From Rhizobium sp. NZLR1 (GTDB lineage Bacteria; Pseudomonadota; Alphaproteobacteria; Rhizobiales; Rhizobiaceae), in NCBI RefSeq assembly GCF_017357385.1, contig NZ_CP071632.1, positions 4,214,001 to 4,278,000 on the forward strand: a stretch of DNA of 64,000 nucleotides. Direction: 5' to 3'. This document shows positions 49,521 through 64,000 of this stretch, one piece after another. The position numbers were made by a program, and so were the translations under genes. Within the stretch, counting starts at the first letter, position 1. Each line of letters opens with the position of its first letter. The notes below the pieces were generated by a model. That model made no database searches and was not told where the DNA came from. It saw only the letters and a list, made by a program, of their open reading frames with translations.

Positions 49521-49656
49521 AACCTTTTCTGGTCAGATTGAAAATTCTGCCGGAGCAAGAACGACTCTAAGCTTTCGTTAACGCATTCTCTTAAAGGAAT
49601 ATGCGCAAGCCGGGCGTAGAGCATGAAACCACAAGGCATGTGACCGGAACATCATC

Positions 49657-50730
49657 ATGACGACATCGATCGGCCGCCGGACTTTTCTCGCAGCACCCGG
49701 CAATCTGCTGCTCTGGCTGATTGCCGCCTTTCACATGCTGCTTCTTGCGGCCCTGTTTGTGGCCTTTCTGGCTGCGCGACCGGCTGCGGCCGAAGAGGCG
49801 GCCTGCACCGGCCGCAATCTGATGGTCGAGCTGCAGCAGAACGACCCCGCCCGCTATGCCGAGGCGCTGAAGGAAGCCGACGCAACCCCGAACGGCAAGG
49901 GCATCTTCTGGAAGATCGAGAAGCCGGGGCTTGCGCCGTCATGGCTGCTCGGCAGCATGCATGTTACCGACCCGCGTGTTCTGGTCTTGCCGCAGCGCGC
50001 CCAGGCAGCCCACGACGCCGCCGACACGATCATCATCGAATCCGACGAGATCCTCGACGAAAGGAAGGCGACCGCCGCCCTGCTCGCAAGGCCGGAGCTG
50101 ACGATGTTCACCGACGGCACGACGATCGACAAGCTGCTCTCCCCCGAGGACTACAAGCGCCTCGAAGCCGGTTTGAAGCAGCGCGGGATTCCGCTCAGTG
50201 CCGTTTCCCGCATGCGGCCTTGGATGATTTCGAGCGCCGTTGCCCTGCCGGCCTGCGAGATCGCCCGCAAGGCGAAAGGCGTGCAGTTCCTCGACCAGAA
50301 GATTGCCACCGACGCGGTTGCCGAAGGCAAGCAGGTGAAGGGGCTGGAAACCCTTGCCGAACAGATCCAGGCCATGGCCGACCTGCCGGTCGAATTCCAT
50401 CTGAAGTCGCTGATCGAGACGCTGGAGCTCGGCGACAAGATGAGCGATGTCGTGGAAACAATGACCGACCTCTATCTCTCCGGCGAGATCGGCATGACCA
50501 TGCCGATGCTGAAGACCGTGACGCCGAAGAAGGAAGGCGAAGATGACGACTATGCCGCCTTCGAACAGCGCGTCATCCTCGACCGCAACAAGGTGATGGC
50601 CGAGCGCGCCGCCCCGATCCTCGACGGCGGCAACGTCTTCATGGCGGTCGGCGCCCTGCACCTGCCCGGCAAGGCCGGCGTCATCGAACTGCTGCGCCGG
50701 CAGGGCTTCACGGTCAGTGCGGTGAACTGA
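49657..50730 (+). CDS. TraB/GumN-family protein
   Basis: The protein has 357 residues. The N-terminus has a long signal or anchor sequence (residues 15-45, with RRTFL before it) ending at AAAEEA, so the protein is exported. Family features are WLLGSMHVTDPRV near residue 95 with its GxxH, an ExxE-like acidic segment (IIIESDEIL) and GNVFMAVGALHLPGKAGV near the C-terminus with its GxxH. These residues make the metal-dependent hydrolase-like core of TraB/GumN proteins, whose cell function is not well known. The gene stands between xerC and cytochrome b561. Confidence 0.88.
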   Translation: MTTSIGRRTFLAAPGNLLLWLIAAFHMLLLAALFVAFLAARPAAAEEAACTGRNLMVELQQNDPARYAEALKEADATPNGKGIFWKIEKPGLAPSWLLGSMHVTDPRVLVLPQRAQAAHDAADTIIIESDEILDERKATAALLARPELTMFTDGTTIDKLLSPEDYKRLEAGLKQRGIPLSAVSRMRPWMISSAVALPACEIARKAKGVQFLDQKIATDAVAEGKQVKGLETLAEQIQAMADLPVEFHLKSLIETLELGDKMSDVVETMTDLYLSGEIGMTMPMLKTVTPKKEGEDDDYAAFEQRVILDRNKVMAERAAPILDGGNVFMAVGALHLPGKAGVIELLRRQGFTVSAVN

Positions 50731-50738
50731 ACCAGCAA

Positions 50739-51239
50739 TCAGCCGAACGTCATGCGGCGCAGCACATTGGTTTTCCAATAGAAATGATGGACGAGCGCGC
50801 CGGCGACATGCGCCGCGATCAGCGCCCAGAGAATGATCTTCAGGATATCCGCGTGGAGCGAACCGGCGGGATTGATGCCGAAATAGTAGGCGGCGATGCC
50901 CGTAAGCGGCATGGCGAAGATCAGGATATAGAGACCGGCATGGGCAAGCCGCGCGGCAAGACGGAAGATCGCCGGTTCCTTGGCGGCCTCGGCCGGCACG
51001 CCTTTGGTAACACGCAGCCCGAGCCGGACGATCGCAAGCAGCAGGATGGCGATGCCGACATAAGCATGGATATTCGCCGACGAAACCTGCTCCGGCGTCG
51101 GCACCTGCCCCCTGCGCATCAGCCGATGCCAGACATTCATGCCGTCGGGAAACAGCAGATTGAAGAAGATCAGCAGCGCCACCGTCCAATGAAGGAAGCG
51201 CTGGCTGAGACTGTAAGCCATGATGGACGGCTGCTGCAT
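50739..51239 (-). CDS. Cytochrome b561
   Basis: This membrane di-haem cytochrome has 166 residues and four membrane segments. Haem-ligand histidines are expected in RFLHWTVAL, in SSANIHAYVG, in LAHAGLYILI and in AAHVAGALVHHFYW, the pattern of the bacterial b561 (CybB) family. It likely oxidises ubiquinol and protects against superoxide in the inner membrane. It is convergent with the TraB gene with only 8 nt between. A start at an ATG at 51221 is also possible. Confidence 0.92.
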   Translation of the reverse strand: MQQPSIMAYSLSQRFLHWTVALLIFFNLLFPDGMNVWHRLMRRGQVPTPEQVSSANIHAYVGIAILLLAIVRLGLRVTKGVPAEAAKEPAIFRLAARLAHAGLYILIFAMPLTGIAAYYFGINPAGSLHADILKIILWALIAAHVAGALVHHFYWKTNVLRRMTFG

Positions 51240-51289
51240 TTTCTCGACCTTCGTCAGATGTTGATCTCAGCGATTCTCAACAACCAGAC

Positions 51290-51402
51290 TAGAGCATGAT
51301 GCCGAAAAGTGTGCGCGGTTTTCGGACAACGTCATGCTCTAACTCTTTAATTTAGAACAGGATGATTCCAGGCCAACCGGGCCTAAAATCATCCTGTTAT
51401 AG
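51290..51402 (-). repeat. Dispersed bimodular palindromic repeat, family A, copy 3 (inverted)
   Basis: This is the reverse complement of the elements at 9569-9685 and 34177-34289, with AGAGCATGATGCCG to CATGCTCTAAC and GAACAGGATGATTCCAGGCC to GGCCTAAAATCATCCTGTT. It lies between the cytochrome b561 start and the end of the enolase cluster, 14 nt from the RraA-like stop codon. Confidence 0.92.
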
Positions 51403-51415
51403 GGTAATCCATTGG

Positions 51416-52162
51416 CTAGGTTGTTCCCAAGCGGTTTGTCTTGCGCCACTCTTCGTACTCTCCGCGGGCATCGTCATGCAGCGGATAGTAGCGCTGCAAC
51501 GACCCGCCTTCCATAAGCTTCACTCGCGAGAACTCCTCCCAATCGTGATGCTTTTGCGATTCTTCGATGACCGTCGAGGCCATTGCGACCGGAAGCATCA
51601 CCACACCGTCATCGTCGGCGACGATGATGTCTCCGGGGATTACCGTGACACCGCCGCAGGCAATCGGGACGTTGACGGCGTTGGGATAGATGCCGGTCTG
51701 CACATGATAGTTGGGTGTCCAGCCGCGCAGCCATAAAGGCAGATCCAGCTTCTCGACATTGGGCCGATCGCGCATGCAGCCATCGATCACGATGCCAGCG
51801 CCGCCTCTGCCTTTGAAATAGGTCGACATCATATCGCCGAAGACGCCAGAACTCATGTCGCCGCGCGCGTCGACGACGACCACATCGCCCTCCTGCACGT
51901 GATAAAGCACATGGCGGTGCAACTGCGTCTCCGGATCTGCATATTCTCCCTCGTTAAAAAGGTCCGGCCGCTGCGGCAGGAATTGAAGCGTCAGGGCGGG
52001 CCCGACGATCGACTTCCCGTGATTCTGCGCCACGGGACCGACCATGTGCGGATTGCGGAAGCCCATGTGGCCAAGCGTGCCGGCAACGGTCGCGGCACCG
52101 ATTTCTTTCAGTGCGTCGATCAACTCTTTGGGCGGTCGCGTAATGTCGGGCGTATGTGTCAT
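51416..52162 (-). CDS. RraA-like/HMG-aldolase-family protein
   Basis: The protein has 248 residues of the RraA/4-hydroxy-4-methyl-2-oxoglutarate aldolase fold. The motif VVVDARGDMSSGVFGDMMSTYFKGRGGAG contains the Gly-rich loop, GIVIDGCMRDRP has the catalytic Arg and Asp of the aldolases, and VPIACGGVTVIPGDIIVADDDGVV is typical. True RraA (about 160 residues) is shorter; the longer metal-dependent aldolases cleave 2-oxo acids to pyruvate. In this cluster it probably splits the 2-keto-3-deoxy acid made by the enolase-family dehydratases. It ends the minus-strand operon. Confidence 0.9.
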   Translation of the reverse strand: MTHTPDITRPPKELIDALKEIGAATVAGTLGHMGFRNPHMVGPVAQNHGKSIVGPALTLQFLPQRPDLFNEGEYADPETQLHRHVLYHVQEGDVVVVDARGDMSSGVFGDMMSTYFKGRGGAGIVIDGCMRDRPNVEKLDLPLWLRGWTPNYHVQTGIYPNAVNVPIACGGVTVIPGDIIVADDDGVVMLPVAMASTVIEESQKHHDWEEFSRVKLMEGGSLQRYYPLHDDARGEYEEWRKTNRLGTT

Positions 52163-52183
52163 TTTGTGCTCCGGTGGATGAAA

Positions 52184-53347
52184 CTACCAGTTGGTGACAG
52201 AACCGTCGCGGCGCTTCAGGTGAGGCGCTTCCCAGAAACGAAAGCTCTCCGCCTTGACCGCCTCTTCGTTGACCTCGACGCCGAGCCCCGGCAGATCGTT
52301 GACCGGATAGTCGGGACCGTCGAGCCGTGGTTGCACGGGGAAGAAGTCGGAATTATCGAAGCCCAGCTTCGCTTCGGGCGCCCTGGTCTCGAGCCAAGCG
52401 AAATTCGGTACCGCGGCGGCGAGATGGATGGTCGCGGCCGTGCAGACGGGGCCGAGGGGATTGTGCGGCATCAGGTCCACATAGTGCGCCTCGCTCCAAC
52501 CAGCGACCTTCATCGCTTCGGTGAGCCCGCCAACATTGCAAACATCGAGCCGGTTGAATTGATGTATGCCACGCTCGATGTAGGGCAGGAATTGCCACTT
52601 GCTGGCAAATTCCTCGCCGATGGCGAACGGGATGTCGGTCATCGTGCGCAGGGATTCGTAGGCCTCGGGTGTCTCGTCTCGTATCGGCTCCTCAAGGAAA
52701 TCAAGCACGCCACGGCCGAGCTTGTTACAGAAGCTCGCCGCTTCTGCCACCGACAGCCGATGATGGTAATCGATGCCGAGGACGACCTCGTCGCCCAGTG
52801 CCTGGCGCGCCTTGTTTAGCATAGCTGCGGTAGCGCCGATCGACTCCCGCGGCTCAAAGACGTCCTTGCTGTTTTGCCCGATGGGGAAGAAGCGGATCGC
52901 CTGCCACCCTTGTGCGCGTAGTTCGCGGGCTCGCTCGATGGCAACATCGCCCTCGGCCTCGTCACCGGTCGAGGCGAAGGTCGGAATGCGGTCGCGCTGT
53001 TTACCGCCCAGCAATTCGTAGGCCGGCACCCCCAGCGCCTTGCCCTTGATGTCGTGAAGGGCAATGTCGATGGCTGAAATCGCCGCCTGCAGAACGCGCC
53101 CTCCTTCGAAGTATTGGCTGCGATAAACTTCTTGCCAGATCCGACCAATCTGCATCGGGTCGCGGCCGATGAGAAACTCGCGATAGTGCTCGATCGCGCC
53201 GGCCACGGCCTTCTCGCGACCGCTCAAGCCGCTCTCGCCCCAGCCGAAGATGCCGTTGTCGGTCTCGACCTTGACCAGCATCTGGTTGCGCGTTCCTACC
53301 CATACTGGATAGGGCTTGATCGCCGTGATTTTAAGCTTCGTAGTCAT
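52184..53347 (-). CDS. Enolase-superfamily sugar acid dehydratase (galactonate-dehydratase-like)
   Basis: This MR/MLE-family enzyme has 387 residues from the ATG at 53347. The N-terminal capping domain is followed by a TIM barrel. Metal ligands and acid/base residues can be placed: Asp193 and His195 (IDYHH), Glu219 or 220 (LEEP), Glu245 (GEE), Asp268 (DVCNVGGLTE) and His295 (PHNPLGP). The D-x-H pair on the third strand is typical of galactonate, gluconate and mannonate dehydratases. It is adjacent to the importer's ATPase and RraA-like aldolase genes, so it should dehydrate the imported acid or its oxidation product. The substrate is not known. Confidence 0.9.
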   Translation of the reverse strand: MTTKLKITAIKPYPVWVGTRNQMLVKVETDNGIFGWGESGLSGREKAVAGAIEHYREFLIGRDPMQIGRIWQEVYRSQYFEGGRVLQAAISAIDIALHDIKGKALGVPAYELLGGKQRDRIPTFASTGDEAEGDVAIERARELRAQGWQAIRFFPIGQNSKDVFEPRESIGATAAMLNKARQALGDEVVLGIDYHHRLSVAEAASFCNKLGRGVLDFLEEPIRDETPEAYESLRTMTDIPFAIGEEFASKWQFLPYIERGIHQFNRLDVCNVGGLTEAMKVAGWSEAHYVDLMPHNPLGPVCTAATIHLAAAVPNFAWLETRAPEAKLGFDNSDFFPVQPRLDGPDYPVNDLPGLGVEVNEEAVKAESFRFWEAPHLKRRDGSVTNW

Positions 53348-53380
53348 CAACGCCCTCGTTTCACACACATCGGCTTGGTC

Positions 53381-54478
53381 TCAGTTGGCCTTGAGGGCCA
53401 TTTCTGTTTCGCCGTCGAACAAATGCATCCGCTCTTGATCGAACTCGAGCCAAATCTGTTCGTCGGGCGCGACGGCAATGGTCGGCGGCACGCTGACATT
53501 GACGATGGCGCCGGACAGCAACGCCTGTACGAAGGTGACGTCCCCGGTCGGCTCCACCGTGTAGGCCTTTGCCGGGATGCTTCCAGGCATCGCACTCTTG
53601 TGCAGCTTGATCGTCGAGTGACGTGCGCCGAGGACGACTTTCTTGGTGGTTGCCCTGGCGACCTTCTGGGCGTTGTTTGGCGAGAGTTCGAGGCACCAGC
53701 CCTCCGCGCTGGTCAACACGGTGTTGCCGCTTGCCGTTGATGCTTCCAGCGGAACAAGGCTCATCGCCGGGCTGCCGACGAAGCTGGCGACGAACATGTT
53801 CACCGGATGGGCAAAGACCTGCGCCGGTGAATCGTATTGCTGCAGGTAGCCGCCATTCATCACCGCCATCCTGTCGGCCATCGTGACCGCTTCGAGCTGG
53901 TCGTGCGTCACGTAGATGATCGTTGCTTTGAGGTCCTGGTGGAAACGCTTGATCTCCGACCGCATCTGCACGCGCAGCTTTGCGTCGAGGTTGGAGAGTG
54001 GTTCATCCATCAGGAATACCGCTGGATCGCGAACGAGGGCACGGCCCAGCGCCACGCGCTGCTGTTGCCCGCCCGAAAGTTCGCGTGGCTTGCGCTCGAG
54101 CAGCTGCGTCATATCGAGCACGCGCGCTGCTTCCTTGACCCTCTTGTCGATCTCGTCCCTTGGCAGTTTGCGCATCTGCAACGGGAACGCCAGATTTTTG
54201 TAGACCGATTTCTGCGGATAGAGCGCGTAGTTCTGGAACACCATTGCGATGTCCCGGTCCTTGGGGTCGAGGTCGTTGACCACCCGGTCGCCGATGACGA
54301 TGTCGCCGGATGTGATGGGGATGAGCCCTGCCACAAGATTGAGTGTGGTGGTCTTGCCGCAGCCTGAAGGGCCGACGAGCGCAACGAATTCGCCGTCGTT
54401 GACCGTCAGCGAAACATTGTTGACAGCTTTGAAGCTGCCATAGGTCTTGACCAGATCTTTGAGGACCACGTGGGCCAC
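53381..54478 (-). CDS. Sugar ABC transporter ATP-binding protein, UgpC/MsmK type
   Basis: The ATPase has 365 residues from a GTG at 54478 with GGGGAG upstream; the frame upstream to 54703 overlaps the permease gene and has no homology. Walker A is GPSGCGKTT, the signature LSGGQQQRVALGRAL, Walker B VFLMDEPLSNLDA, and the switch His YVTHDQLEA. The C-terminal TOBE domain of sugar importer ATPases follows. It energises the two permeases encoded directly upstream. Confidence 0.95.
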   Translation of the reverse strand: MAHVVLKDLVKTYGSFKAVNNVSLTVNDGEFVALVGPSGCGKTTTLNLVAGLIPITSGDIVIGDRVVNDLDPKDRDIAMVFQNYALYPQKSVYKNLAFPLQMRKLPRDEIDKRVKEAARVLDMTQLLERKPRELSGGQQQRVALGRALVRDPAVFLMDEPLSNLDAKLRVQMRSEIKRFHQDLKATIIYVTHDQLEAVTMADRMAVMNGGYLQQYDSPAQVFAHPVNMFVASFVGSPAMSLVPLEASTASGNTVLTSAEGWCLELSPNNAQKVARATTKKVVLGARHSTIKLHKSAMPGSIPAKAYTVEPTGDVTFVQALLSGAIVNVSVPPTIAVAPDEQIWLEFDQERMHLFDGETEMALKAN

Positions 54479-54489
54479 CGGCAACTCCC

Positions 54490-55380
54490 CTAGTGCTTGA
54501 CTGCGCCTTCCGTGAGGGCGCGTACGAAGTATCGTTGCAGGACAAGGAACAGGACCACGACGGGCACGCTCATCATGAAGCTGGCCGCCATCAGACCCGG
54601 AAAGTCCGTTGTATTTTCCGAGAAGAAGCGCTGAATGCCGACCGGCAGCGTCAACTGATCGTTCTTGGAGAGGAAGGTGTAGGCGTAGATGTACTCGTTC
54701 CACGCGCCAATGAAGGAATAGATCGCCGTGGCGATAATTCCTGGCGCCGAGAGCGGCATCACGATCAGGAAAAAGGCCTGGAACCGCGTTGCCCCGTCGA
54801 TGCGCGCCGCCTGCTCGAGTTGCACCGGGATATTGTCATAGAAGCCCTTGAGGAGCCAGATTGCCAGCGGCAGGCCGAATGTGAGGTAGGTGAGGACGAG
54901 CGACCCATGCGTGTTCACCAGCCCGATCGCGCGCATCAAGATGAAGAGCGGCACGAGAAAGATCACTGCCGGGAACATGTTCCGAAGCAAGACGGCGAAG
55001 AACAGAAAGTTCCGGCCCGGGAAGGTGAAGCGTGAAAACGCGTAGGCCGCAGGAACTGCCACGATCACCGAAAGGATGGTCGTGGCGGTGGAGACGAAAA
55101 GGCTGTTCCAAAAGAAGCGCAGGAAGTCCTGGCCGACGCTGTTTTGCGGATCGAGCAGCTTTTGGTAGCTGGCGAGGGTGGGGTGGTCTGGCCACCATTG
55201 CGGCGGGAATTGCATGGCCGCGAAGCCGGACTTGATCGAGGTGATCAGCATCCAGATCATCGGTAATGCGGTGTAAAGCAGCATGAACACAAGGAAGATG
55301 CGTCCGCCCCACCGCCATCCATCGATGCGCATACGGCGACGCGCCCGGCCTCGATGAGCAGTCTCGGCAATCGTGCTCAT
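54490..55380 (-). CDS. Carbohydrate ABC transporter permease, MalG type
   Basis: This inner-membrane permease has 296 residues, with EQAARIDGATRFQAF as the EAA loop and LQRYFVRALTEGAVKH at the end. The ATG at 55380 overlaps the upstream permease stop by one base (TGATG). It works with the MalF-type subunit, the binding protein and the ATPase of the enolase cluster. A TTG one codon upstream is also in frame. Confidence 0.93.
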   Translation of the reverse strand: MSTIAETAHRGRARRRMRIDGWRWGGRIFLVFMLLYTALPMIWMLITSIKSGFAAMQFPPQWWPDHPTLASYQKLLDPQNSVGQDFLRFFWNSLFVSTATTILSVIVAVPAAYAFSRFTFPGRNFLFFAVLLRNMFPAVIFLVPLFILMRAIGLVNTHGSLVLTYLTFGLPLAIWLLKGFYDNIPVQLEQAARIDGATRFQAFFLIVMPLSAPGIIATAIYSFIGAWNEYIYAYTFLSKNDQLTLPVGIQRFFSENTTDFPGLMAASFMMSVPVVVLFLVLQRYFVRALTEGAVKH

Positions 55381-56336
55381 CAACTCCCGTCCTTTTGCTC
55401 GTTGCCGCTCAGCGCACGGACGTAGAAGTAGCCGAGCGACATCAGGATCAGGAACAGCAGCACCGAATAGGCCGATGCCACTCCCCAGCGCTGGCGGCCG
55501 AAGGCGAGTTCATAAATATGGGTGATCCAGATATGCGATGCATTCGACGGCCCGCCGCCGGTCATGATCCAGGGGATGATGAAAGAATTGAAGTTGGCCA
55601 CTGCCAGCAGAAGGATCGTCACAGTCGAGACGTTTCTCAAGTGCGGGAAGGTGACGTGCCAGAACCGCTGCCATGCATTGGCTCCGTCGACTTTTGCGGC
55701 GCGTAGCAACTGGTCGGGAACCGTCTGCAGGCCAGCCATCATCATGATCATGGCAAAGGGAAACTCTCGCCAGATATTGACGACGATCAGCGAGGGCAGC
55801 ACCGTGCTGACGCTGTCGATGAAATTCGGCGGCCGGTCGGCCAATCCGAGGCCGACCAGCACCGCCCCAATGATCCCAAAGTCCGAATGGTAGATCCACT
55901 TCCAGATATAGGACGCGGCGACCGCGCTGATGACCCAGGGAATGATCAGGACGGCGCGCAGGATGCCACGGCCGACAAAGTCACGATGGAGCGCCAGGGC
56001 GCTGGCAAACCCCAGGACAAATGAGATGAAAGTGGATCCCAGTGTCCAGATAAGAGTGTTCGAGGTGACCTTCCAGAACACCGGACTTGTGAGGATGGAG
56101 ATGTAGTTGTCGAGGCCGATGAAAATCTTGTCCCGCAGCTGCAGGCCAGGCGGTGTGTTGAAGAACGACAGTTCGATCGTGTAGTAGATAGGGTAGGCTA
56201 TGACGATGAGCATCACGGCGATCGCAGGAAGCACGTACGCGTAGTCAGCGCGATGCTGCCAAATCTTTCGCAGCACGCCGGACCTATCGAGTTGCGGTCT
56301 TCGTCGAGCCTCGGCCTTGCCAGTCAAGATCGTCAC
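55380..56336 (-). CDS. Carbohydrate ABC transporter permease, MalF/UgpA type
   Basis: This permease has 318 residues, a cytoplasmic N-terminus and about six membrane segments; the EAA-type loop is LLRAAKVDGANAWQRFW. The start is a GTG at 56336 with AAGGG upstream. It lies 73 nt behind the binding-protein gene, with a 9-bp hairpin in the gap. It is the second gene of the minus-strand operon of the enolase cluster. Confidence 0.92.
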   Translation of the reverse strand: MTILTGKAEARRRPQLDRSGVLRKIWQHRADYAYVLPAIAVMLIVIAYPIYYTIELSFFNTPPGLQLRDKIFIGLDNYISILTSPVFWKVTSNTLIWTLGSTFISFVLGFASALALHRDFVGRGILRAVLIIPWVISAVAASYIWKWIYHSDFGIIGAVLVGLGLADRPPNFIDSVSTVLPSLIVVNIWREFPFAMIMMMAGLQTVPDQLLRAAKVDGANAWQRFWHVTFPHLRNVSTVTILLLAVANFNSFIIPWIMTGGGPSNASHIWITHIYELAFGRQRWGVASAYSVLLFLILMSLGYFYVRALSGNEQKDGS

Positions 56337-56364
56337 AGTGCCGCGCCCTTATTCTTCGGAGCAA

Positions 56365-56391
56365 ACCGGCTGCAATCGAGGCGCAGCCGGT
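56365..56391 (-). other. Hairpin between binding-protein and permease genes
   Basis: ACCGGCTGC and GCAGCCGGT pair perfectly over a 9-nt loop, 19 nt after the binding-protein stop. It repeats the layout of the hairpin at 3035-3057 in the other sugar importer operon. A role in raising binding-protein mRNA relative to permease mRNA is inferred. Confidence 0.7.
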
Positions 56392-56409
56392 CAGATCGTC
56401 TGGCTTGGA

Positions 56410-57888
56410 CTAGAGTCCGCCGTCCATCAGGTCTTTTACCTTCTTGGCTGCGTCATCAGCCGCTTGGTCGACGGTCATGGCTCCGGTCAGGGCATTCTGC
56501 AGCATGTCCGGGACGATGATGTTCATGATCTCGGGGGACTGTGGCAGCGCCGGGAACGGGATGCCGTATGGCAGCATCGAGGTCGTGACATCAAGGAACT
56601 TGATACTATCAAGACGTTCCTTCATCCATTTGGTCTTGAAGCCGTTAAGGTTTCCCGGGTTCGAGCCGGCATAGGCCATCTTCAGCGACCATTCGGGGCT
56701 CGTCCACATGCAGATGATAGCCTTTGCAGCCGCCTCGTCTACCTTGCCGCCCTCGACATATTCGGGCTTCAGGATGTGAATGTTGGAGCCGCCAAACACG
56801 ACGGCACGCTTGCCGTCGGGGCCAGTCGGAATCAGGCCGTAGCGCATGTTGTCGATTACGGTCTGCGCCTTGTCCTTGTCGGTATCCGTCGCCTTTTTCT
56901 GCAGGTCGAGCATGACGTTGTAGTCGGACGGGTGCGAGATCATCATGCCGAGCTGGCCAGCGAGGAAGAGCGGCTGGTTGTCGGCCTGCTGGTTGGTGAG
57001 CGCCGAAACCGGAACCGACTTGTCGCGAACATACATATCGTAGGAGGCTTGCAATGCCGCCTTGCTCTGCGGACTGTTGAGTTCGACCTCCTTATAGGTC
57101 GGGTTGGCGGTAGCTTCGTCGAAGACGCCACCACCATAGGCCCATAGCTGCGGCATGAAACGGTACGGCGTATTGCCGGCATTCTTGCGAGCCACGAGAC
57201 CGTAACCGGCAATGCCGAGCTTGTCGTGGATCTGTTTGGAATCCTTGACGACGTCGTCCCAGGTTGCCGGAGCCTTATCCGGATCGAGGCCTGCACGCTT
57301 GAAGATGTCGGCGTTCCAGATGAACGCCATCGTCTCGTTGTTGGTGGGAATGCCGTAAGTCACCCCCTCCCAGGTTACAGCCTTCATTGCGCCCGGCCAG
57401 AAATCCTCGGTCGAATACCCTACATCCTCGGGTTTGAGCGGCTGCAAATAGCCCTTTGAGGCGAACTCGGTGCCGCCCAGGATTTGCAGGCGGACCGCCA
57501 TGGGCGCAGCATTGCCAAGGAGCGCGGTCCGGAACTTGTCCAGCAGGTCATTATAGGTGAGGGCTTGTTCCTCAAGCTCGATGTTTGGATAGGTTTTGCG
57601 GAAGGTCTCGAAGAACTCCTTGTAATACTGGCGCAGGAGGTCGGGGTCGCCCTCGAACACGCCCTGATACCAGAAAGTCAGTCGCCCCTTATAGTCGAGC
57701 GGAGTGACCTTGGCGCAATCGGCCGCCGTGTCAAAATCCTGTGTGCCAGCAATCGAACGCACATATTGCGGCGACCACTTGCTCAAGTCGACCGACGCTC
57801 CGAGCGCCGACGCGGACATCAACGACATCATCAAAGCAGTGGAAACAGTGCCGCGCAGGACGGCACCACCGAATGAAATCCTCGACAT
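56410..57888 (-). CDS. Extracellular substrate-binding protein of the enolase-cluster importer
   Basis: This is a family-1 binding protein of 492 residues, longer than most sugar-binding proteins (about 420). GGAGG precedes the ATG. The signal peptide (residues 1-30) is cut at ALGA, then the mature chain starts SVDLSKWSPQYV. The segment GIPTNNETMAFIWNADIFKRAGLDPDKAPATWDD is diagnostic of the family. It is the first gene of the minus-strand operon, divergent from the GntR gene. The ligand is presumably the acid sugar or oligomer degraded by the four enolase-family enzymes. Confidence 0.92.
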   Translation of the reverse strand: MSRISFGGAVLRGTVSTALMMSLMSASALGASVDLSKWSPQYVRSIAGTQDFDTAADCAKVTPLDYKGRLTFWYQGVFEGDPDLLRQYYKEFFETFRKTYPNIELEEQALTYNDLLDKFRTALLGNAAPMAVRLQILGGTEFASKGYLQPLKPEDVGYSTEDFWPGAMKAVTWEGVTYGIPTNNETMAFIWNADIFKRAGLDPDKAPATWDDVVKDSKQIHDKLGIAGYGLVARKNAGNTPYRFMPQLWAYGGGVFDEATANPTYKEVELNSPQSKAALQASYDMYVRDKSVPVSALTNQQADNQPLFLAGQLGMMISHPSDYNVMLDLQKKATDTDKDKAQTVIDNMRYGLIPTGPDGKRAVVFGGSNIHILKPEYVEGGKVDEAAAKAIICMWTSPEWSLKMAYAGSNPGNLNGFKTKWMKERLDSIKFLDVTTSMLPYGIPFPALPQSPEIMNIIVPDMLQNALTGAMTVDQAADDAAKKVKDLMDGGL

Positions 57889-57943
57889 AGGTATCCTCCA
57901 GGTTCTCCCATGCCGCTCTGCATCGAGGCGAGCGGTCTTTGCT

Positions 57944-57972
57944 CATTGGCTGCGGGTCGTTTTCAGCCAATG
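57944..57972. promoter_or_regulatory. Inverted repeat in the divergent binding-protein/gntR promoter region
   Basis: CATTGGCTG and CAGCCAATG are perfect 9-bp arms separated by 11 nt. It is the only strong dyad I see in the 194-nt gap between the two diverging operons and is a candidate operator for the adjacent GntR regulator. The alternative is a hairpin in the leader of the binding-protein mRNA. Confidence 0.5.
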
Positions 57973-58082
57973 TATCTCTTTGGACAGATCATACGTTTTC
58001 AGATCGAAGATTGCCTGTCAACTGGAGAAATCGTACATTGTTTAGATAATCGTCGCGTGATATCGAAGCAATATATGTATTG

Positions 58083-58805
58083 ATGGGGACAGCTTTGGCC
58101 GAAACAAGCGATTTTAAAGCGCAGCCACCCGAGGGGATCGACGCTATCGGGGCCTCCAGCGAGGGCGCCTCGCTTTATCAGTTGATCAGGGACGACATTA
58201 TTGAAGGGCGGCTCGCTGCCAACGAACGGCTTGTCGTCACCGATCTCGCCCGGCGCCACGGCACCTCGACCAACCCGGTGCGAGAGGCTCTGCAACTATT
58301 GCGCGGGGAGGGCTTCGTCACCCTCGTTCCCAACCGCGGGGCGCGCGTCCGGCCCATAGATCAGGATTTTGTTCGGGACATCTACGAAATAGGAGTCTTG
58401 ATCGAGCCGGCACTGACGCGATGGTTCGTGAATATGGCCACCGTCGAGGACATTGCTGAACTCGAACGCATCCAGGGCTTGATCGAAGAGAACAACTTCG
58501 CCGACACGTTCAGGCACAGCGAGCTGGACACCGCCTTTCACACCGTAATGTACCAAAGGCACTACAACCGCCATGCCGCCGAGCTTTGGTGGAAGCATCG
58601 CGAAGTGCTTCGAGCCGTGAGCCGGCGTTTCAACTTCACGCTCGCCCGGCGTGCCGCGATCCTTAGCGAGCATCGCGAGCTCATCGCGCATGTAAAAGCG
58701 GGAAATGCGAACGAGGCAGGCGAACTCATCGCACGCCATGTCGAGGGCTCCGGCCGGCACATCCTCGAACACATGCGTGCGCGAAACGCCGCTCGGGCAG
58801 GATAG
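58083..58805 (+). CDS. GntR-family (FadR subfamily) transcriptional regulator
   Basis: The protein has 240 residues from the ATG at 58083. The N-terminal winged HTH (LYQLIRDDIIEGRLAANERL then TDLARRHGTSTNPVREAL) is followed by an all-helical FCD ligand domain that begins DIYEIGVLIEPAL and contains metal-site histidines (HTVMYQRHYN and HRELIAHVKAG). FCD regulators of sugar-acid genes bind the aldonate or uronate. It begins the plus-strand operon with three enolase-superfamily genes and is divergent from the importer operon, so it likely controls both. The Shine-Dalgarno is weak. Confidence 0.92.
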   Translation: MGTALAETSDFKAQPPEGIDAIGASSEGASLYQLIRDDIIEGRLAANERLVVTDLARRHGTSTNPVREALQLLRGEGFVTLVPNRGARVRPIDQDFVRDIYEIGVLIEPALTRWFVNMATVEDIAELERIQGLIEENNFADTFRHSELDTAFHTVMYQRHYNRHAAELWWKHREVLRAVSRRFNFTLARRAAILSEHRELIAHVKAGNANEAGELIARHVEGSGRHILEHMRARNAARAG

Positions 58806-58853
58806 AGGCCTCGAATATCGTTATCCCGACCACTTCAGATAAAGGCAGTTGAG

Positions 58854-60020
58854 ATGAAAATCACCAGCGTTCGGCCGTGGCTGATCAAGTCCGATGCTTC
58901 TTATTGGGGAGAGTATCTGTTCGTCGAAGTGACGACCGACGAGGGGGTGAGCGGCTGGGGAGAAATCACCACCACGACAAGGCTCGCTAATCGCGCCCTC
59001 TGCACGATCCTGCGGCAGATCGGTGCCGCTGTGACAGGCGAGGACCCGGCGCGTATTGAGTATCTGTGGCACAAGATATTCCGCAGCTTCACCTACATGG
59101 GCAGTCGGGGTGCCGCAGTCGAATGCGTGAGCGCCATCGACATAGCCCTCTGGGATATCCGAGGCAAGGTCCTGGGTAAGCCGATTTACGAACTGTTGGG
59201 TGGACCGGTACGCGATGAAATTGCGCTCTACACCCATCCCAACCAGGCCAAATTTACCAGCAACGAGGCTGTGGTCCGCGAAATTCGAGACATCGTCGAG
59301 TCCGGCCACACGGCGCTCAAGTTCGATCCTTTCCCCCACCAAGGCCGCACCGCCGATGGACAGTTTCGCGAACAGCGGGACGGCTACCTCGATGGCAGCA
59401 TGACCCGCAAAGATGAGCGCGAAGCCGCCGAACTCACTGCTCTGATCCGCGAAACGGCGGGCTCTGATGTCGACATCCTCATCGATGCGCACGGCCGGTT
59501 CGACGTTCCCACCGCCATTCGCCTTTGTCGAAGCCTCGAGGAAGCTGGTCAGATCGACTGGTTCGAGGAGCCCTGTCCACCGGAGAGCCTCAACGCTCTC
59601 AGACAGGTCCGTGAGAAGGTCAGCGCCGCTATCTCGTGGGGCGAACGCGGCCACACGAAGTGGGATTTCGTGCCGGTGCTCGAAAACAAGCTCGCTGACT
59701 ACATCATGCCTGATGTCACATGGACCGGCGGCATTACCGAACTCAAGAAGATTTCTGCCCTATGCGAAGCCTACTACATCCCGGTCTCGCCGCATGACGC
59801 CGCAGGGCCGATCAATGTGGTTGCGGGAGCGCAGGTGATGATGACCGTTCCCAACTTCTACAAACTCGAAACGTCGGAGTGGAACCTGGGTAAATACGAT
59901 CACCTCATCGACAGACCACTCGATGTTTCGAACGGTAGCCTCAAGCTTACGCCCAAGCCCGGTCTCGGCGTCGAAATGAACCGCGACTACCTTCAAAACC
60001 ACGAGATAGAGCTGGACTAG
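58854..60020 (+). CDS. Enolase-superfamily sugar acid dehydratase (second type)
   Basis: This MR/MLE-family enzyme has 388 residues. The catalytic set is Asp211 and His213 (IDAHGR), Glu238 or 239 (FEEP), Glu264 (GER), Asp287 (PDVTWTGGITE) and His314 (SPHDAAGP), with KFD near residue 156 at the second strand. The D-x-H arrangement resembles galactonate or mannonate dehydratases. The sequence differs widely from the copy at 52184-53347, so it is not a recent duplicate and may act on a different epimer. It is the second gene of the plus-strand operon. Confidence 0.9.
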   Translation: MKITSVRPWLIKSDASYWGEYLFVEVTTDEGVSGWGEITTTTRLANRALCTILRQIGAAVTGEDPARIEYLWHKIFRSFTYMGSRGAAVECVSAIDIALWDIRGKVLGKPIYELLGGPVRDEIALYTHPNQAKFTSNEAVVREIRDIVESGHTALKFDPFPHQGRTADGQFREQRDGYLDGSMTRKDEREAAELTALIRETAGSDVDILIDAHGRFDVPTAIRLCRSLEEAGQIDWFEEPCPPESLNALRQVREKVSAAISWGERGHTKWDFVPVLENKLADYIMPDVTWTGGITELKKISALCEAYYIPVSPHDAAGPINVVAGAQVMMTVPNFYKLETSEWNLGKYDHLIDRPLDVSNGSLKLTPKPGLGVEMNRDYLQNHEIELD

Positions 60021-60071
60021 CAACCCAGCGTGCACGGCGATGAGCCCAGCCGACCAAAACGAGGATAAATC

Positions 60072-61433
60072 ATGCCAGAGGCAGATGGAGCCGACGAGGC
60101 GCTCAATCGGGTGAACACGCATTCCAAGCCGTCCGATCTTCGCATCACCGACATGCGGGTAGCCGAAATTGTCGGCGCGCCGTTCACCTCAGTGCTGCTT
60201 AAGATTTACACCAACCAGGGCATCGTCGGGCTTGGCGAGGTGCGCGACGGCGCCAGCGCCACCTACGCGCTGATGCTGAAGAGCCGGTTGCTTGGCGAGA
60301 ACCCTTGCGACATCGACCGCCTGTTTCGCCGGATCAAGCAGTTCGGCGGGCACGGCCGGCAAGGCGGTGGCGTATCGGCGATTGAAATCGCGTTGTGGGA
60401 TCTTGCCGGCAAGGCCTATGGCGTCCCCATCTACCAGATGCTCGGCGGTCGTTTTCGGGAGAAAGTGCGCGTCTACTGCGATACCGACGCCACCGTGCCG
60501 AGCGGCACCGAGACTGGTAAGCGCCTCAAGCAGCGCATGGAGCTCGGCTTCACCTTCCTCAAGATGGACTTAGGACTGATGCAGATCGCAGATGTGCCCG
60601 GTGCCGTCGTCTTTCCTGCCGGCTCACTGGAAGGATACCGCGATCCTCCCAATCGCGGGCCGCTGAAGACCATTGAAGAGCGGCGTGTCCGCAACGCTGC
60701 GTACGATTTGCATAACGTCCAGCACCCGTTTACCGGCCTCCACTTTTCCGACAAGGGCCTCGACCTGCTTGAGCAATACATCGCCGAGGTTCGTGAGGTC
60801 ATCGGCATGGATGTGCCGCTCGCCATCGATCATATCGGCCATATCTCGATGCAGAACGGCATTCGCCTCGCCCGGCGAATTGAAAAATACGTGCCGGCCT
60901 GGCTCGAAGATGTGATCCCATGGCAGTATACCGAGCAATACCGACAACTGCAGGACGCCACCACGGTGCCGATCTGCACTGGCGAGGACATATACCTCAA
61001 GGAGGGCTTCGAGCCTCTGCTCAACAGCGGCGGCGTCTCCGTTATCCACCCGGACCTGCTCACCAGCGGGGGCATCCTCGAAACCAAGAAGATTGGTGAT
61101 ATGGCGCAGGACCAGGGCGTCGCCATGGCCATCCATATGGCAGAAAGTCCAATCGCCGCAATGGCCGCGGCACATGTCGCGACCGCGACCGAAAATTTCA
61201 TGGCGCTCGAATACCATTCCGCCGATGTCGACTGGTGGGACGATATCGTCACGGGCCTTCCCCGGCCGCTGGTGAAGAATGGCTTCATCACTGTCTCGGA
61301 CAAGCCCGGCCTGGGGATTGACGACGTTGTCGACGAGGTGATCTCGCAGCATCTGCAGCCGGGCGTCACCGGCATTTGGCAGCCTACGGATCACTGGGAC
61401 GATGAGTATTCCTGGGATCGCACCTGGAGCTGA
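60072..61433 (+). CDS. Enolase-superfamily enzyme (third type)
   Basis: The protein has 453 residues with a long N-terminal tail before the MR/MLE capping domain and an insertion near residues 180-215. Placed residues are Lys164 and Asp166 (LKMDLG), Asp253 and His254 (IDHIGH), Glu279 (LED), Glu305 (GED), Asp328 (HPDLLTSGG) and His355 (IHMAESP). The D-H pattern differs from the D-x-H of the other two dehydratases. The C-terminal [10 protein letters not shown] is shared with the next gene. GAGG precedes the ATG. Reaction unknown; a dehydratase or cycloisomerase is likely. Confidence 0.87.
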
Positions 61434-61450
61434 GGCGAAAAGGAACGAAG

Positions 61451-62650
61451 ATGAAGATCACCGATCTCCGCTGCGCCGTTATTGGCAAACACCCGATCGT
61501 GCGCATCGTTACGGACGAGGGCCTCTATGGCTTGGGCGAAGTCGAATTCACCAAGTCCTACCTCAAGCCCTTTGTGCTGCATTTCCACGAGGCGCTGGTC
61601 GGCGAGGATCCGACCGACGTCGAGAGAGTCATGCTGAAGATCCGCCAACGCGGCTCTTTCAAGCCGTACGGCGCGGCGGTGAGCGCTATCGAGCATGCGC
61701 TGTGGGATATTGCTGGCAAGGCCGCGGGCGTGCCCGCCTATAAACTGCTCGGCGGCAAGGTGCGGGACAAGGTGCGCGTCTACAACGGCTCAGTTCGCCA
61801 GAAGCGCACGGGCGACCGGCCGGAGGATTACGCCGCTGACGTCAAATGGATGATGGAGCAGCCGCAGAACTTCTTCATGGTCAAGCAAGGAATCTCGTTC
61901 CACTCCAACATGAAGGACACCATCGAGGGCTTCCACTACGGCGTGACGCAGAACAAGGCCGGCTATCACGGCGCCATGGATCAAGGCGTGATCAGCGAGC
62001 GCGGTTTCAATCACATGCTCGACTGCGTGATCGCGATGAAGGAAGTGCTAGGCGACAAAGTCAGCCTGGCGCTCGACTGCGGCCCGGGCTGGATGCTGCC
62101 CGATGCAATTAAGTTCGCTCGCGCGGTCGAGAAGTACAATTTGATGTGGCTCGAGGACATGCTGACCGGCGACTACGTGCCGTGGGTCAATCCGCAGGCC
62201 TACCGGGAACTGACAACCTCCACCTCGACGCCAATCCACACTGGTGAGCAGATCTACCTGCGGCACAATTTCAAAGAACTGATCGAGACGCAGGCGGTAC
62301 GCGTCATCGGCCCCGATCCAGCGGACGTTGGCGGCATTGCCGAGCTCAAATGGGTCGCCGAGCATGCCTACATGCATTCGATCCTGATGGCACCGCACGG
62401 CACCGCTAACGGCCTGCTGGGCCTCGGCGCGTTGATCAATGTCTGCGCCACGTTGCCGGCAAATTACGTCGCGTTCGAATATCCGACCGCTTCCGACCCC
62501 TGGTGGGAGGATCTTGTCATCGGCTTGCCGCCGCAGATCGTGAAGGACAGCATGGTGGACCTACTGGAAGCGCCGGGGCTGGGCGTCGATATCGACGCTG
62601 AAGGAGCCAGGAGATATCTCAGGGAAGAGGATGCAGGCTTTTTCGACTGA
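61451..62650 (+). CDS. Enolase-superfamily enzyme (fourth type)
   Basis: The protein has 399 residues of the MR/MLE family. Placed residues are Lys145 (MVKQG), Asp209 (LDCGPGW, no His next to it), Glu235 (LED), Glu266 (GEQ), Asp289 (PDPADVGG) and His316 (PHGTANG). It shares the layout of the third enzyme (the GE(D/Q)IYL block and WWEDLVIGLP), so the two are related paralogs, 17 nt apart. The third-strand difference suggests other stereochemistry or substrate. It ends the plus-strand operon. A long inverted repeat follows 60 nt later. Confidence 0.88.
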   Translation: MKITDLRCAVIGKHPIVRIVTDEGLYGLGEVEFTKSYLKPFVLHFHEALVGEDPTDVERVMLKIRQRGSFKPYGAAVSAIEHALWDIAGKAAGVPAYKLLGGKVRDKVRVYNGSVRQKRTGDRPEDYAADVKWMMEQPQNFFMVKQGISFHSNMKDTIEGFHYGVTQNKAGYHGAMDQGVISERGFNHMLDCVIAMKEVLGDKVSLALDCGPGWMLPDAIKFARAVEKYNLMWLEDMLTGDYVPWVNPQAYRELTTSTSTPIHTGEQIYLRHNFKELIETQAVRVIGPDPADVGGIAELKWVAEHAYMHSILMAPHGTANGLLGLGALINVCATLPANYVAFEYPTASDPWWEDLVIGLPPQIVKDSMVDLLEAPGLGVDIDAEGARRYLREEDAGFFD

Positions 62651-62710
62651 ACCTCCCTCCACCTGCCGTGCCCATCTTGTCGGGCGTAAGGGAATAGGGT
62701 TGTCGAAATA

Positions 62711-62757
62711 AGCGGCATCGACCTGTAAGCAGGGAATGGCGGTTCGATGCCGCCTTT
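62711..62757 (+). terminator. Terminator-like inverted repeat after the enolase operon
   Basis: GCGGCATCGA (62712-62721) and TCGATGCCGC (62744-62753) form a perfect 10-bp stem; a small hairpin CCTG-TAAG-CAGG lies in the loop, and CTTT follows. It also has a tRNA-like T-arm look, discussed among the rejected items. It probably ends the plus-strand operon. Confidence 0.6.
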
Positions 62758-62791
62758 GCGCACCGCGTCGAAAGCGCTGAAGGTTTAGTCT

Positions 62792-62822
62792 AAAAAAGCC
62801 GCCCGCCTTCCGGCAAGCGGCT
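62792..62822 (-). terminator. Rho-independent terminator of lpdA
   Basis: On the minus strand AGCCGC and GCGGCT pair as a stem (further inner GCC/GGC pairs possible), followed by TTTTTTAG. It starts 25 nt after the lpdA stop codon. Confidence 0.85.
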
Positions 62823-62847
62823 GTATGCTTTGTTACGATATGTAGGA

Positions 62848-64000
62848 TTACATATGGATCGGCTTGAAGAAGGTCGCGAGCGCGGCCTCCTTCACCGCTT
62901 CCGACATGGTCGGATGCGCGTGGCAGGTACGGCCGAGATCTTCCGACGAGCCGCCGAACTCCATCAGCACGGTGATCTCGTGGATCATCTCGCCGGCGCC
63001 GAAGCCGACGATATGGCCGCCGAGCACCCGGTCGGTTTCCTTGTCGGCAAGGATCTTGACGAAACCGTCTGTCGCCAGCATCGCGCGGGCGCGGCCATTG
63101 GCCGTGAACGGGAACTTGCCGACCTTGTAGGCGATGCCCGCGGCCTTCAGTTCTTCCTCGGTCTTGCCGACCGACGCGATCTCCGGCTGCGTGTAGACGA
63201 CGCTCGGAATCACCTCGTAATTGACGTGCCCATGCTGGCCGGCGAGAATTTCGGCGAGCGCCACACCCTCGTCTTCCGCCTTGTGCGCCAGCATCGGACC
63301 CTTGACCACGTCGCCGATCGCATAGATGCCGGCGACATTGGTCTTGAAGTGACCGTCGATCTCGACGCGGCCGCGATTGTCAAGCGTAACACCGGCCTCT
63401 TCCAGGCCGAGACCCGCTGTATAGGGCTTGCGGCCGGTGGCGATTAGCACGACGTCGGCGTCGAGCGTCACCTTGTCACCGCCCTTGGCCGGCTCGAATG
63501 TGATCTTGGCGCACTTGTCGCCCTTTTCGACGCCGGTCACCTTGGCGCCGAGATGGAAATCGATGCCCTGCTTGGCGAGCATGCGCTGGAACTGTTTGGA
63601 GACTTCGCCGTCCATGCCGCCGAGAATGGTGTCGAGATATTCGACGACGGTGACCTTGGCGCCAAGCCGCGACCAGACCGAGCCGAGTTCGAGCCCGATG
63701 ACGCCGCCGCCGACGACGATCAGCGTTTCCGGCACCTTTTCCAGCGCGATGCCGCCGGTGGACGAGATGATGGTCTTCTCATCGATCTCGACCTGCACGC
63801 CGGGAATGCCGGCAATGTCGGAGCCGGTGGCAATGACGATGTTCTTGCCTTCGATCTCCTGCACCTTGCCGTCGTCGGCGATGACGGCAACCTTGCCTGC
63901 CGAGACGATCTTGCCGCTGCCCTGGAAGGCATCGATCTTGTTTTTCTTGAAGAGGAAGGCGACGCCGTCGACATTCGACTTCACCGTGGCGTCCTTGTGG
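62848..64000 (-). CDS. lpdA: Dihydrolipoamide dehydrogenase, partial (5' end off window)
   Basis: The C-terminal 383 residues are visible; the frame stays open to the right edge (HKDATVKSNVDGVAFL), so the N-terminal FAD part and the redox-active disulfide are outside. Visible parts are IATGSD, the NAD-binding segment VVGGGVIGLELGSVWSRLG, the second FAD block GIYAIGDVVKGPMLAHKAEDEG and the catalytic base region HAHPTMSEAVKEAAL. It is the E3 component of 2-oxoacid dehydrogenase complexes. The copy next to the suc genes is usual in rhizobia, but those genes would lie beyond the window. Confidence 0.96.
   Translation of the reverse strand, partial: HKDATVKSNVDGVAFLFKKNKIDAFQGSGKIVSAGKVAVIADDGKVQEIEGKNIVIATGSDIAGIPGVQVEIDEKTIISSTGGIALEKVPETLIVVGGGVIGLELGSVWSRLGAKVTVVEYLDTILGGMDGEVSKQFQRMLAKQGIDFHLGAKVTGVEKGDKCAKITFEPAKGGDKVTLDADVVLIATGRKPYTAGLGLEEAGVTLDNRGRVEIDGHFKTNVAGIYAIGDVVKGPMLAHKAEDEGVALAEILAGQHGHVNYEVIPSVVYTQPEIASVGKTEEELKAAGIAYKVGKFPFTANGRARAMLATDGFVKILADKETDRVLGGHIVGFGAGEMIHEITVLMEFGGSSEDLGRTCHAHPTMSEAVKEAALATFFKPIHM

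Follow-up and report, generated by a model that had tools for sequence, protein, structure and literature searches.

A block of ten genes in Rhizobium sp. NZLR1 most likely allows the bacterium to use an acid sugar from the surroundings of plant roots as food, and the ten genes form one mobile unit that moves between strains. The block lies at positions 51416-62650 of the window, the 64,000-nucleotide stretch of contig NZ_CP071632.1 (4,214,001 to 4,278,000) analyzed here, and consists of ten open frames in two divergent operons (Table 1). The minus-strand operon encodes, in this order, the solute-binding protein, two permeases and the ATPase of an importer, an enolase-superfamily enzyme (Eno1) and an RraA-like protein. 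The plus-strand operon encodes a GntR/FCD regulator followed by three further enolase-superfamily enzymes (Eno2, Eno3 and Eno4). An earlier note on this DNA had described a CUT1 importer, an RraA-like protein, a GntR/FCD regulator and four enolases in two divergent operons, and the ten frames and their Pfam and NCBIfam assignments agree with that description. The Pfam domains are RraA-like, four pairs of MR_MLE_N and MR_MLE_C, ABC_tran with TOBE_2, two BPD_transp_1, SBP_bac_1, and GntR with FCD.

The ten genes are inherited together. A survey of gene order in genome contigs covered the best 80 of 545 loci, and all ten genes occur in the identical order in 69 of them. Nine of the 11 incomplete loci stop inside or beside rraA at the 10-kb limit of the fetched stretch, and two are cut by contig ends. 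Whole-genome searches for five of the 11 found rraA at the expected place in loci L019, L041, L046 and L054, and on another contig for L063. The apparent loss of rraA from the 11 loci was rejected because the stretches end at the 10-kb limit or at contig ends and the gene is present in the five genomes checked.

The mobility of the unit follows from an empty site in R. johnstonii 3841 and from differing neighbors. In that strain, window positions 49565-51284 and 62790-64000 meet at position 12118 of L131 (blastn), while its own copy of the island (L015) is on that replicon too, some 0.6 Mb away from the empty site. Four annotated plasmid copies were examined among 40 listed, and the genes flanking the island differ between them. 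One of these records (L092) has no annotation row for the ATPase and one permease, yet both are recovered by tblastn. A dispersed repeat, which we take to be RIME-like, lies at the left edge of the island. It has 64 matches in the genome with at most two mismatches, compared to none for the reversed control, and further copies are found in the window at about 9660 and 34264. No direct or inverted repeat of 10 or more bases is shared between 51231-51416 and 62651-62850.

Divergence alone supports transfer between genera in part. With the synonymous divergence (dS) of XerC as the yardstick, a thin one as it is a single core gene (0.71-0.85 for L039, L060, L084 and L100), the island genes are clearly below it in L039 and L060 (0.35-0.47), with the exception of eno3 (0.64-0.70), and overlap it in L084 and L100 (0.47-0.83). 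The ratio of nonsynonymous to synonymous divergence is 0.03-0.14 for the six island genes tested (six to nine comparisons per gene), and these six are therefore under purifying selection. Eno3 is found at E <= 1e-150 in 58 of 120 genomes of the same genus. Among 297 genomes of the order, 11 have it at E <= 1e-60, four of the 11 at just 42-43% identity. Eno4 is found at E <= 1e-100 in five of 385 genomes of the class and six of 398 of the phylum; the own genome is included in all these counts. Eno4 is 98% identical in Rhizobium records.

Some loci carry additional genes. A frame of the NIPSNAP family directly precedes eno4 in 32 loci, many of them from Mesorhizobium (for example, L041, 9641-9991). 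Many of these loci have an Eno3 of 85-88% identity, and such an Eno3 also occurs in some loci without the frame. A second RraA gene, 59-60% identical to that of the island, lies beyond eno4 in L046, L054, L056, L061 and L070; the interval between eno4 and this second gene contains, in L046, an NAD epimerase-family gene and a fifth enolase.

All four enzymes have both the N- and C-terminal MR/MLE domains of the enolase superfamily above the Pfam cut-offs. The earlier note had counted four non-identical enolases with three patterns of third-strand motif. The motifs are as it described them, DYHH in Eno1, DAHG in Eno2, DHIG in Eno3 and DCGP in Eno4, and represent the β3 types D-x-H (Eno1 and Eno2), D-H (Eno3) and D-C-G (Eno4); the pairwise identity is 26-35%. 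The alignments of Eno1 to Eno4 contain 95, 91, 96 and 103 rows, the window included, some rows being overlapping stretches of one genome; rows below an identity threshold or covering less than 85% of the length were excluded. The acids D/E/E of strands 3, 4 and 5, read off the alignments and presumably the metal ligands as in the superfamily at large, are invariant in all four alignments, as are the β7 His and the D and H residues of the β3 motif. Three motif positions vary: Eno1 has Phe for Tyr in one of 95 rows, Eno3 has Val (45 of 96 rows) or Phe (five rows) for Ile, and Eno4 has Ala for Cys in two of 103. Judged by these alignments, the active sites of the four enzymes are conserved.

In a maximum-likelihood tree of 36 rows, each of the Eno1, Eno2 and Eno4 clades is supported at 100/100, and the clade that unites Eno3 with relatives of 40% identity at 100/99. 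Eno3 and Eno4 are sisters (99/96), and the D-mannonate dehydratase ManD forms a further separate clade. Seven rows have long branches, and their placement and some deep joins are unsure. All four enzymes score below the cut-offs of the NCBIfam models that they match. The D-galactonate dehydratase (GalD) model NF010624, with a cut-off of 311, gives 285.8, 231.8, 192.6 and 171.9 bits for Eno1 to Eno4, and the ManD model NF043051, with a cut-off of 550, gives 236.3, 193, 149.9 and 136.2 bits. The case that the earlier note had set against itself, in which all four proteins belong to one known isofunctional group, is thus excluded by the separate clades and by these scores.

The RraA-like protein (Pfam RraA-like, 125.1 bits) exceeds the cut-off of PRK08245 (319.5 vs 208 bits), a family described as a hypothetical protein. 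It stays below the models of the HMG/CHA aldolases (TIGR02798, 132.7 vs 304.5; NF006731, 129.5 vs 179) and of the RNase E regulator RraA (NF006875, 57.7 vs 136; TIGR01935, 52.5 vs 123.8). The nearest relative of solved structure, 5x15, has no more specific name than putative transferase. Arg131-Asp132 of the protein, invariant in 71 rows, aligns to an Arg-Asp pair of the HMG/CHA aldolase 3noj, which is taken to be Arg-123 and Asp-124. According to the part of PMC5065237 that deals with this aldolase, Arg-123 stabilizes the pyruvate enolate and Asp-124 binds the metal, and most homologs are said there to be likely class II pyruvate aldolases. Both the catalytic Arg and the metal-binding Asp of that class are therefore found in the alignment, and the RraA-like protein is a probable class II aldolase. 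In 3noj, Glu-199 is a second ligand of the metal.

The importer is a complete CUT1 sugar system, in which the binding protein, the two permeases and an ATPase of the MalK/UgpC type are encoded in one operon. The solved relatives of the binding protein are just distant ones (best 6dtq, 1.8e-25), and no solute can be guessed from them. The divergent promoter region contains the element ATCGTACATTGTTT. Its conservation shows in up to 91 aligned divergent intergenic stretches, and it is recognizable in L094 and L099. There are no further exact copies of it in the genome, and four sites with one mismatch compare to one match of the reversed control. The element is a candidate operator for the GntR/FCD protein, a probable regulator of both operons through the promoter region that they share. 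A scan for promoters and terminators found sites no more frequently than in shuffled sequences.

The neighbors of related genes in other bacteria give an indication of the chemistry. Gene calls in the fetched stretches were made with a custom script, and some families were named by likeness or by their first residues. In three alphaproteobacterial loci (L115, L116 and L119), an RraA of 64-66% and an Eno1 of 74-76% identity adjoin a ManD, which passes the D-mannonate dehydratase cut-off (669-696 vs 550 bits); L115 has two Eno1 copies. UxuA-like and NAD epimerase/dehydrogenase-family proteins also adjoin (scanned in L115 and G225, by likeness in L119), and an SMP-30 gene comes next in L115 and L116. 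Eno4 lies within about 12 kb of RraA/Eno1/ManD clusters (L115, L097 and L096), and an Eno3-like protein of 40% identity is near these clusters in two of three genomes. These clusters resemble the island in their RraA, Eno1 and Eno4 (64-85%) and differ from it in having another importer, whose binding protein is of family 5, the peptide type, according to scans in L115 and L097, and the additional ManD, UxuA-like, NAD epimerase/dehydrogenase-family and SMP-30 genes; Eno2 was not found in their fetched stretches. In L106, a CUT1 importer, RraA, Eno1 and Eno4 occur with an Azf-like dehydrogenase (117 bits, cut-off 400), and in L094 an aldo/keto reductase adjoins Eno4. ManD is annotated next to Eno1 in all three plasmid records examined of the 12 listed for an Eno1 relative. 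Two of the 14 plasmid records listed for Eno4 relatives were examined. Both have a CUT1-type importer and an aldo/keto reductase, to which the record from Martelella adds RraA and the one from A. larrymoorei (L135) a mannonate dehydratase.

Further genes were seen around some of these clusters. The own genome has a second cluster (L110, C2, 893-913 kb) with two further enolase-superfamily genes, an Azf-like dehydrogenase, an SMP-30-like gene (by first residues), a GntR-like gene and another importer. In L097 and L112, a GH38-domain protein of 875 amino acids and a second one of 877 amino acids, similar by its first residues, are encoded beside a glucarate-dehydratase-like enolase and importer genes adjoining the Eno4 cluster. 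An alpha-L-rhamnosidase gene, a LacI regulator and importer genes lie near the ManD-Eno1 pair in L132 and L134. Frames resembling ThuA, Gfo/Idh/MocA or flavin monooxygenase (by first residues) recur near some clusters in L053, L112 and L118.

The orthologous locus of R. johnstonii 3841 connects the island to plant roots. The part of PMC3333776 that concerns RL3858, RL3860-2 and RL3864-66 presents them as a CUT1 system flanked by MR/MLE proteins, in which the CUT1 genes RL3860-2 are induced in all three rhizospheres studied and an RL3860 mutant competes poorly (index 0.58). The solute is given there as unknown, and RL3858 and RL3864-66 are read as enzymes of lignin breakdown through the beta-ketoadipate pathway. 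The locus itself is thus already published, a correction to the earlier note, whose author knew of no described pathway with this set. We infer the assignment of the RL tags to genes from gene order. On its replicon in 3841, the island is the one place at which four MR/MLE genes were found in a span of 11 kb, the others being single genes at distances of about 6 kb and 0.4 Mb. Among open-licence PubMed Central papers, the tags RL3857, RL3858, RL3860, RL3862, RL3864 and RL3866 occur only in PMC3333776, and term searches of the accessible text of PMC5789663, PMC8751395, PMC11103875 and PMC4495286 found nothing on the ten-gene locus. The mobile ten-gene unit, the separate clades and the partner genes of the relatives were not found in the literature text searched.

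By combining the domain and family assignments, the conserved ligands and His, the Arg-Asp pair of the RraA-like protein, the ManD and UxuA-like neighbors and the rhizosphere data from 3841, it is possible to propose a route for the pathway, of which we infer every chemical step, their order and the substrate. In the best reading, to which we give moderate confidence, a sugar acid of the root zone or a precursor of it is imported, enolase-superfamily enzymes carry out the dehydration, and the RraA-like protein performs a retro-aldol cleavage. Acid-sugar dehydration followed by an RraA-type pyruvate aldolase, as the earlier note had proposed, remains the best account of the sequence evidence. 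The CUT1 system would import the root-zone compound. The enolase-superfamily enzymes would then take the proton from the carbon alpha to the carboxylate and expel the hydroxyl at the beta position, converting aldonates to 2-keto-3-deoxy acids. The clearest candidates for dehydratases are Eno1 and probably Eno2, which combine the D-x-H motif of β3 with the β7 His. Eno3 and Eno4 might widen the range to other epimers or carry out a preceding isomerization or lactone step. The RraA-like protein would cleave the 4-hydroxy-2-keto acid into pyruvate and an aldehyde such as glyceraldehyde, and no kinase would therefore be needed.

Several observations weigh against this route. Four enzymes exceed the need of a one-substrate pathway. 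The stretches fetched for L094 and L099 have no Eno2, and the one for L118 has no Eno3, Eno4 or GntR, and thus not all four enzymes are always needed. RraA is not annotated in the A. larrymoorei record and was not found in the fetched stretches around the Eno4 relatives L103, L104 (near a contig end), L107 and L109, so Eno4 is not tied to RraA everywhere.

The partial enolase sets also bear on the possibility that the four enzymes act serially on one compound, one of them isomerizing it or opening a lactone or anhydro ring and the others dehydrating it ahead of the aldolase. Such a series would be in keeping with the four separate clades, with the three kinds of β3 motif kept over many rows and with the co-inheritance of the enzymes in 69 of 80 loci. 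In the partial sets, however, the rest of the genes stay, and parallel roles therefore fit better than strictly serial ones; the series is unlikely. That the sister clades Eno3 and Eno4, with an invariant D-H or a D-C/A-G replacing D-x-H, catalyze a reaction new to the superfamily, such as a beta-elimination from a sugar acid that is glycosylated or in anhydro or lactone form, is rather unlikely. If true, the island would represent a novel carbohydrate pathway of the root zone and not a broader aldonate dehydration. A less likely alternative is that the importer takes up a neutral sugar, a glycoside or a lactone, which is oxidized to the acid by enzymes encoded elsewhere in the genome. The earlier note had argued that the imported compound is probably already an acid, as there is no kinase and no obvious dehydrogenase. 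There is indeed none among the ten genes, but the inference is weakened by the oxidation-type genes of related clusters. Since relatives sharing the RraA, Eno1 or Eno4 kinds carry NAD epimerase/dehydrogenase-family, lactonase-like or aldo/keto reductase genes, oxidation in trans and import of a lactone or neutral sugar are possible. The L110 cluster of the own genome, on a different replicon, likewise combines further enolase genes with an Azf-like dehydrogenase. None of these oxidation-type genes, however, belongs to the ten that are co-inherited.

It is quite improbable that the RraA-like protein is a dehydratase/decarboxylase instead of an aldolase, with a route through an aldarate-derived keto acid. 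The product of such a route would be of the 2-oxoglutarate semialdehyde type. The protein retains the aldolase Arg-Asp pair, although the RraA-family protein FlDet is reported in PMC8563752 as a KDGR dehydratase/decarboxylase of alginate catabolism. Degradation of lignin-derived aromatic acids through the beta-ketoadipate pathway appears highly improbable. In its favor are the name of the family, mandelate racemase/muconate lactonizing, and the interpretation published in PMC3333776. The four enzymes, however, score only 97.1, 95.1, 58.1 and 65.3 bits with the muconate/chloromuconate cycloisomerase model TIGR02534 (cut-off 334.95), Pfam detects no ring-cleavage gene among the ten, and the best-scoring families and the relatives' neighbors are sugar-acid dehydratases. 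The sequence evidence thus argues against the published lignin reading and suggests its correction.

Table 1. Features of the island, in window coordinates.
Feature	Position	Strand	Basis
Mobile island, entire insert	51285..62789	.	blastn vs R. johnstonii 3841, empty site there
Dispersed repeat copy, left island edge	51294..51313	+	64 genome matches with at most two mismatches
RraA-like protein, probable class II aldolase, 248 aa	51416..52162	-	Pfam; NCBIfam PRK08245; Arg131-Asp132
Eno1, GalD/ManD-like enolase-superfamily enzyme, DYHH	52184..53347	-	MR_MLE_N/C; GalD model 285.8 bits, cut-off 311
CUT1 ATPase, UgpC/MalK type	53381..54478	-	PRK11650 433.2 bits, cut-off 432
CUT1 permease	54490..55380	-	BPD_transp_1
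CUT1 permease, second	55380..56336	-	BPD_transp_1
CUT1 solute-binding protein, 492 aa	56410..57888	-	SBP_bac_1 121.7 bits
Conserved element ATCGTACATTGTTT, candidate GntR operator	58030..58043	+	conserved intergenic alignment; sole exact genome match
GntR/FCD regulator	58083..58805	+	GntR and FCD domains; start uncertain
Eno2, enolase-superfamily enzyme, DAHG	58854..60020	+	MR_MLE_N/C
Eno3, enolase-superfamily enzyme, DHIG, long insertion	60072..61433	+	MR_MLE_N/C; sister clade of Eno4
Eno4, enolase-superfamily enzyme, DCGP	61451..62650	+	MR_MLE_N/C; at least 50% identity in 102 locus rows

The start of the ATPase was set from an annotated relative of 1098 bp, and its PRK11650 score is that of a form five residues shorter at the N end. 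An alternative start of the GntR/FCD regulator is the TTG at 58095, which corresponds to the length of 711 bp annotated in relatives.

The RL3860-2 system has a reported role in rhizosphere fitness in a model Rhizobium, and the text of PMC3333776 on the locus names no solute for it. The definition of the island, the partner genes of its relatives and the dehydratase-aldolase route narrow this question. Each of the four enzymes stands for a group that the NCBIfam function models leave uncovered in a much-studied superfamily, and these groups are kept together in many Rhizobium and Mesorhizobium genomes.

Among known systems, the closest is the 3841 locus itself. L015 contains all ten genes at 95-98% identity, and its transporter has a single enolase gene on one flank and three on the opposite flank, matching the layout given in PMC3333776. 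It differs in occupying another place of the same replicon than the site used in the NZLR1 window, and in the interpretation attached to its enzymes in the published text on the locus.

Eno1 resembles GalD and ManD in its D-x-H motif and metal ligands and in a C-terminal tail common with 3rr1 and 3vcn, and differs in scoring under both cut-offs. D-x-H, which the earlier note had linked to galactonate, gluconate or mannonate dehydratases, does not fix the function on its own. An Arg-Tyr pair of strand 2 is, we assume, a feature of ManD. In the alignment with 3vcn, Eno1 has an invariant Arg152 (counted from Met) and a gap opposite the 3vcn stretch holding the Tyr. The RraA-like protein, in turn, is related in sequence to the HMG/CHA aldolase 3noj and has its catalytic Arg-Asp pair, yet belongs to PRK08245 and scores under the HMG/CHA cut-offs. 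The L-gulonate pathway of Haemophilus influenzae, as far as it is set out in the relevant part of PMC5788505, resembles the proposed route in that a sugar acid is imported and D-mannonate is dehydrated. That pathway, however, uses a TRAP importer, dehydrogenase steps, the KdgK kinase, the KdgA aldolase and UxuA, and not enolase-superfamily enzymes.

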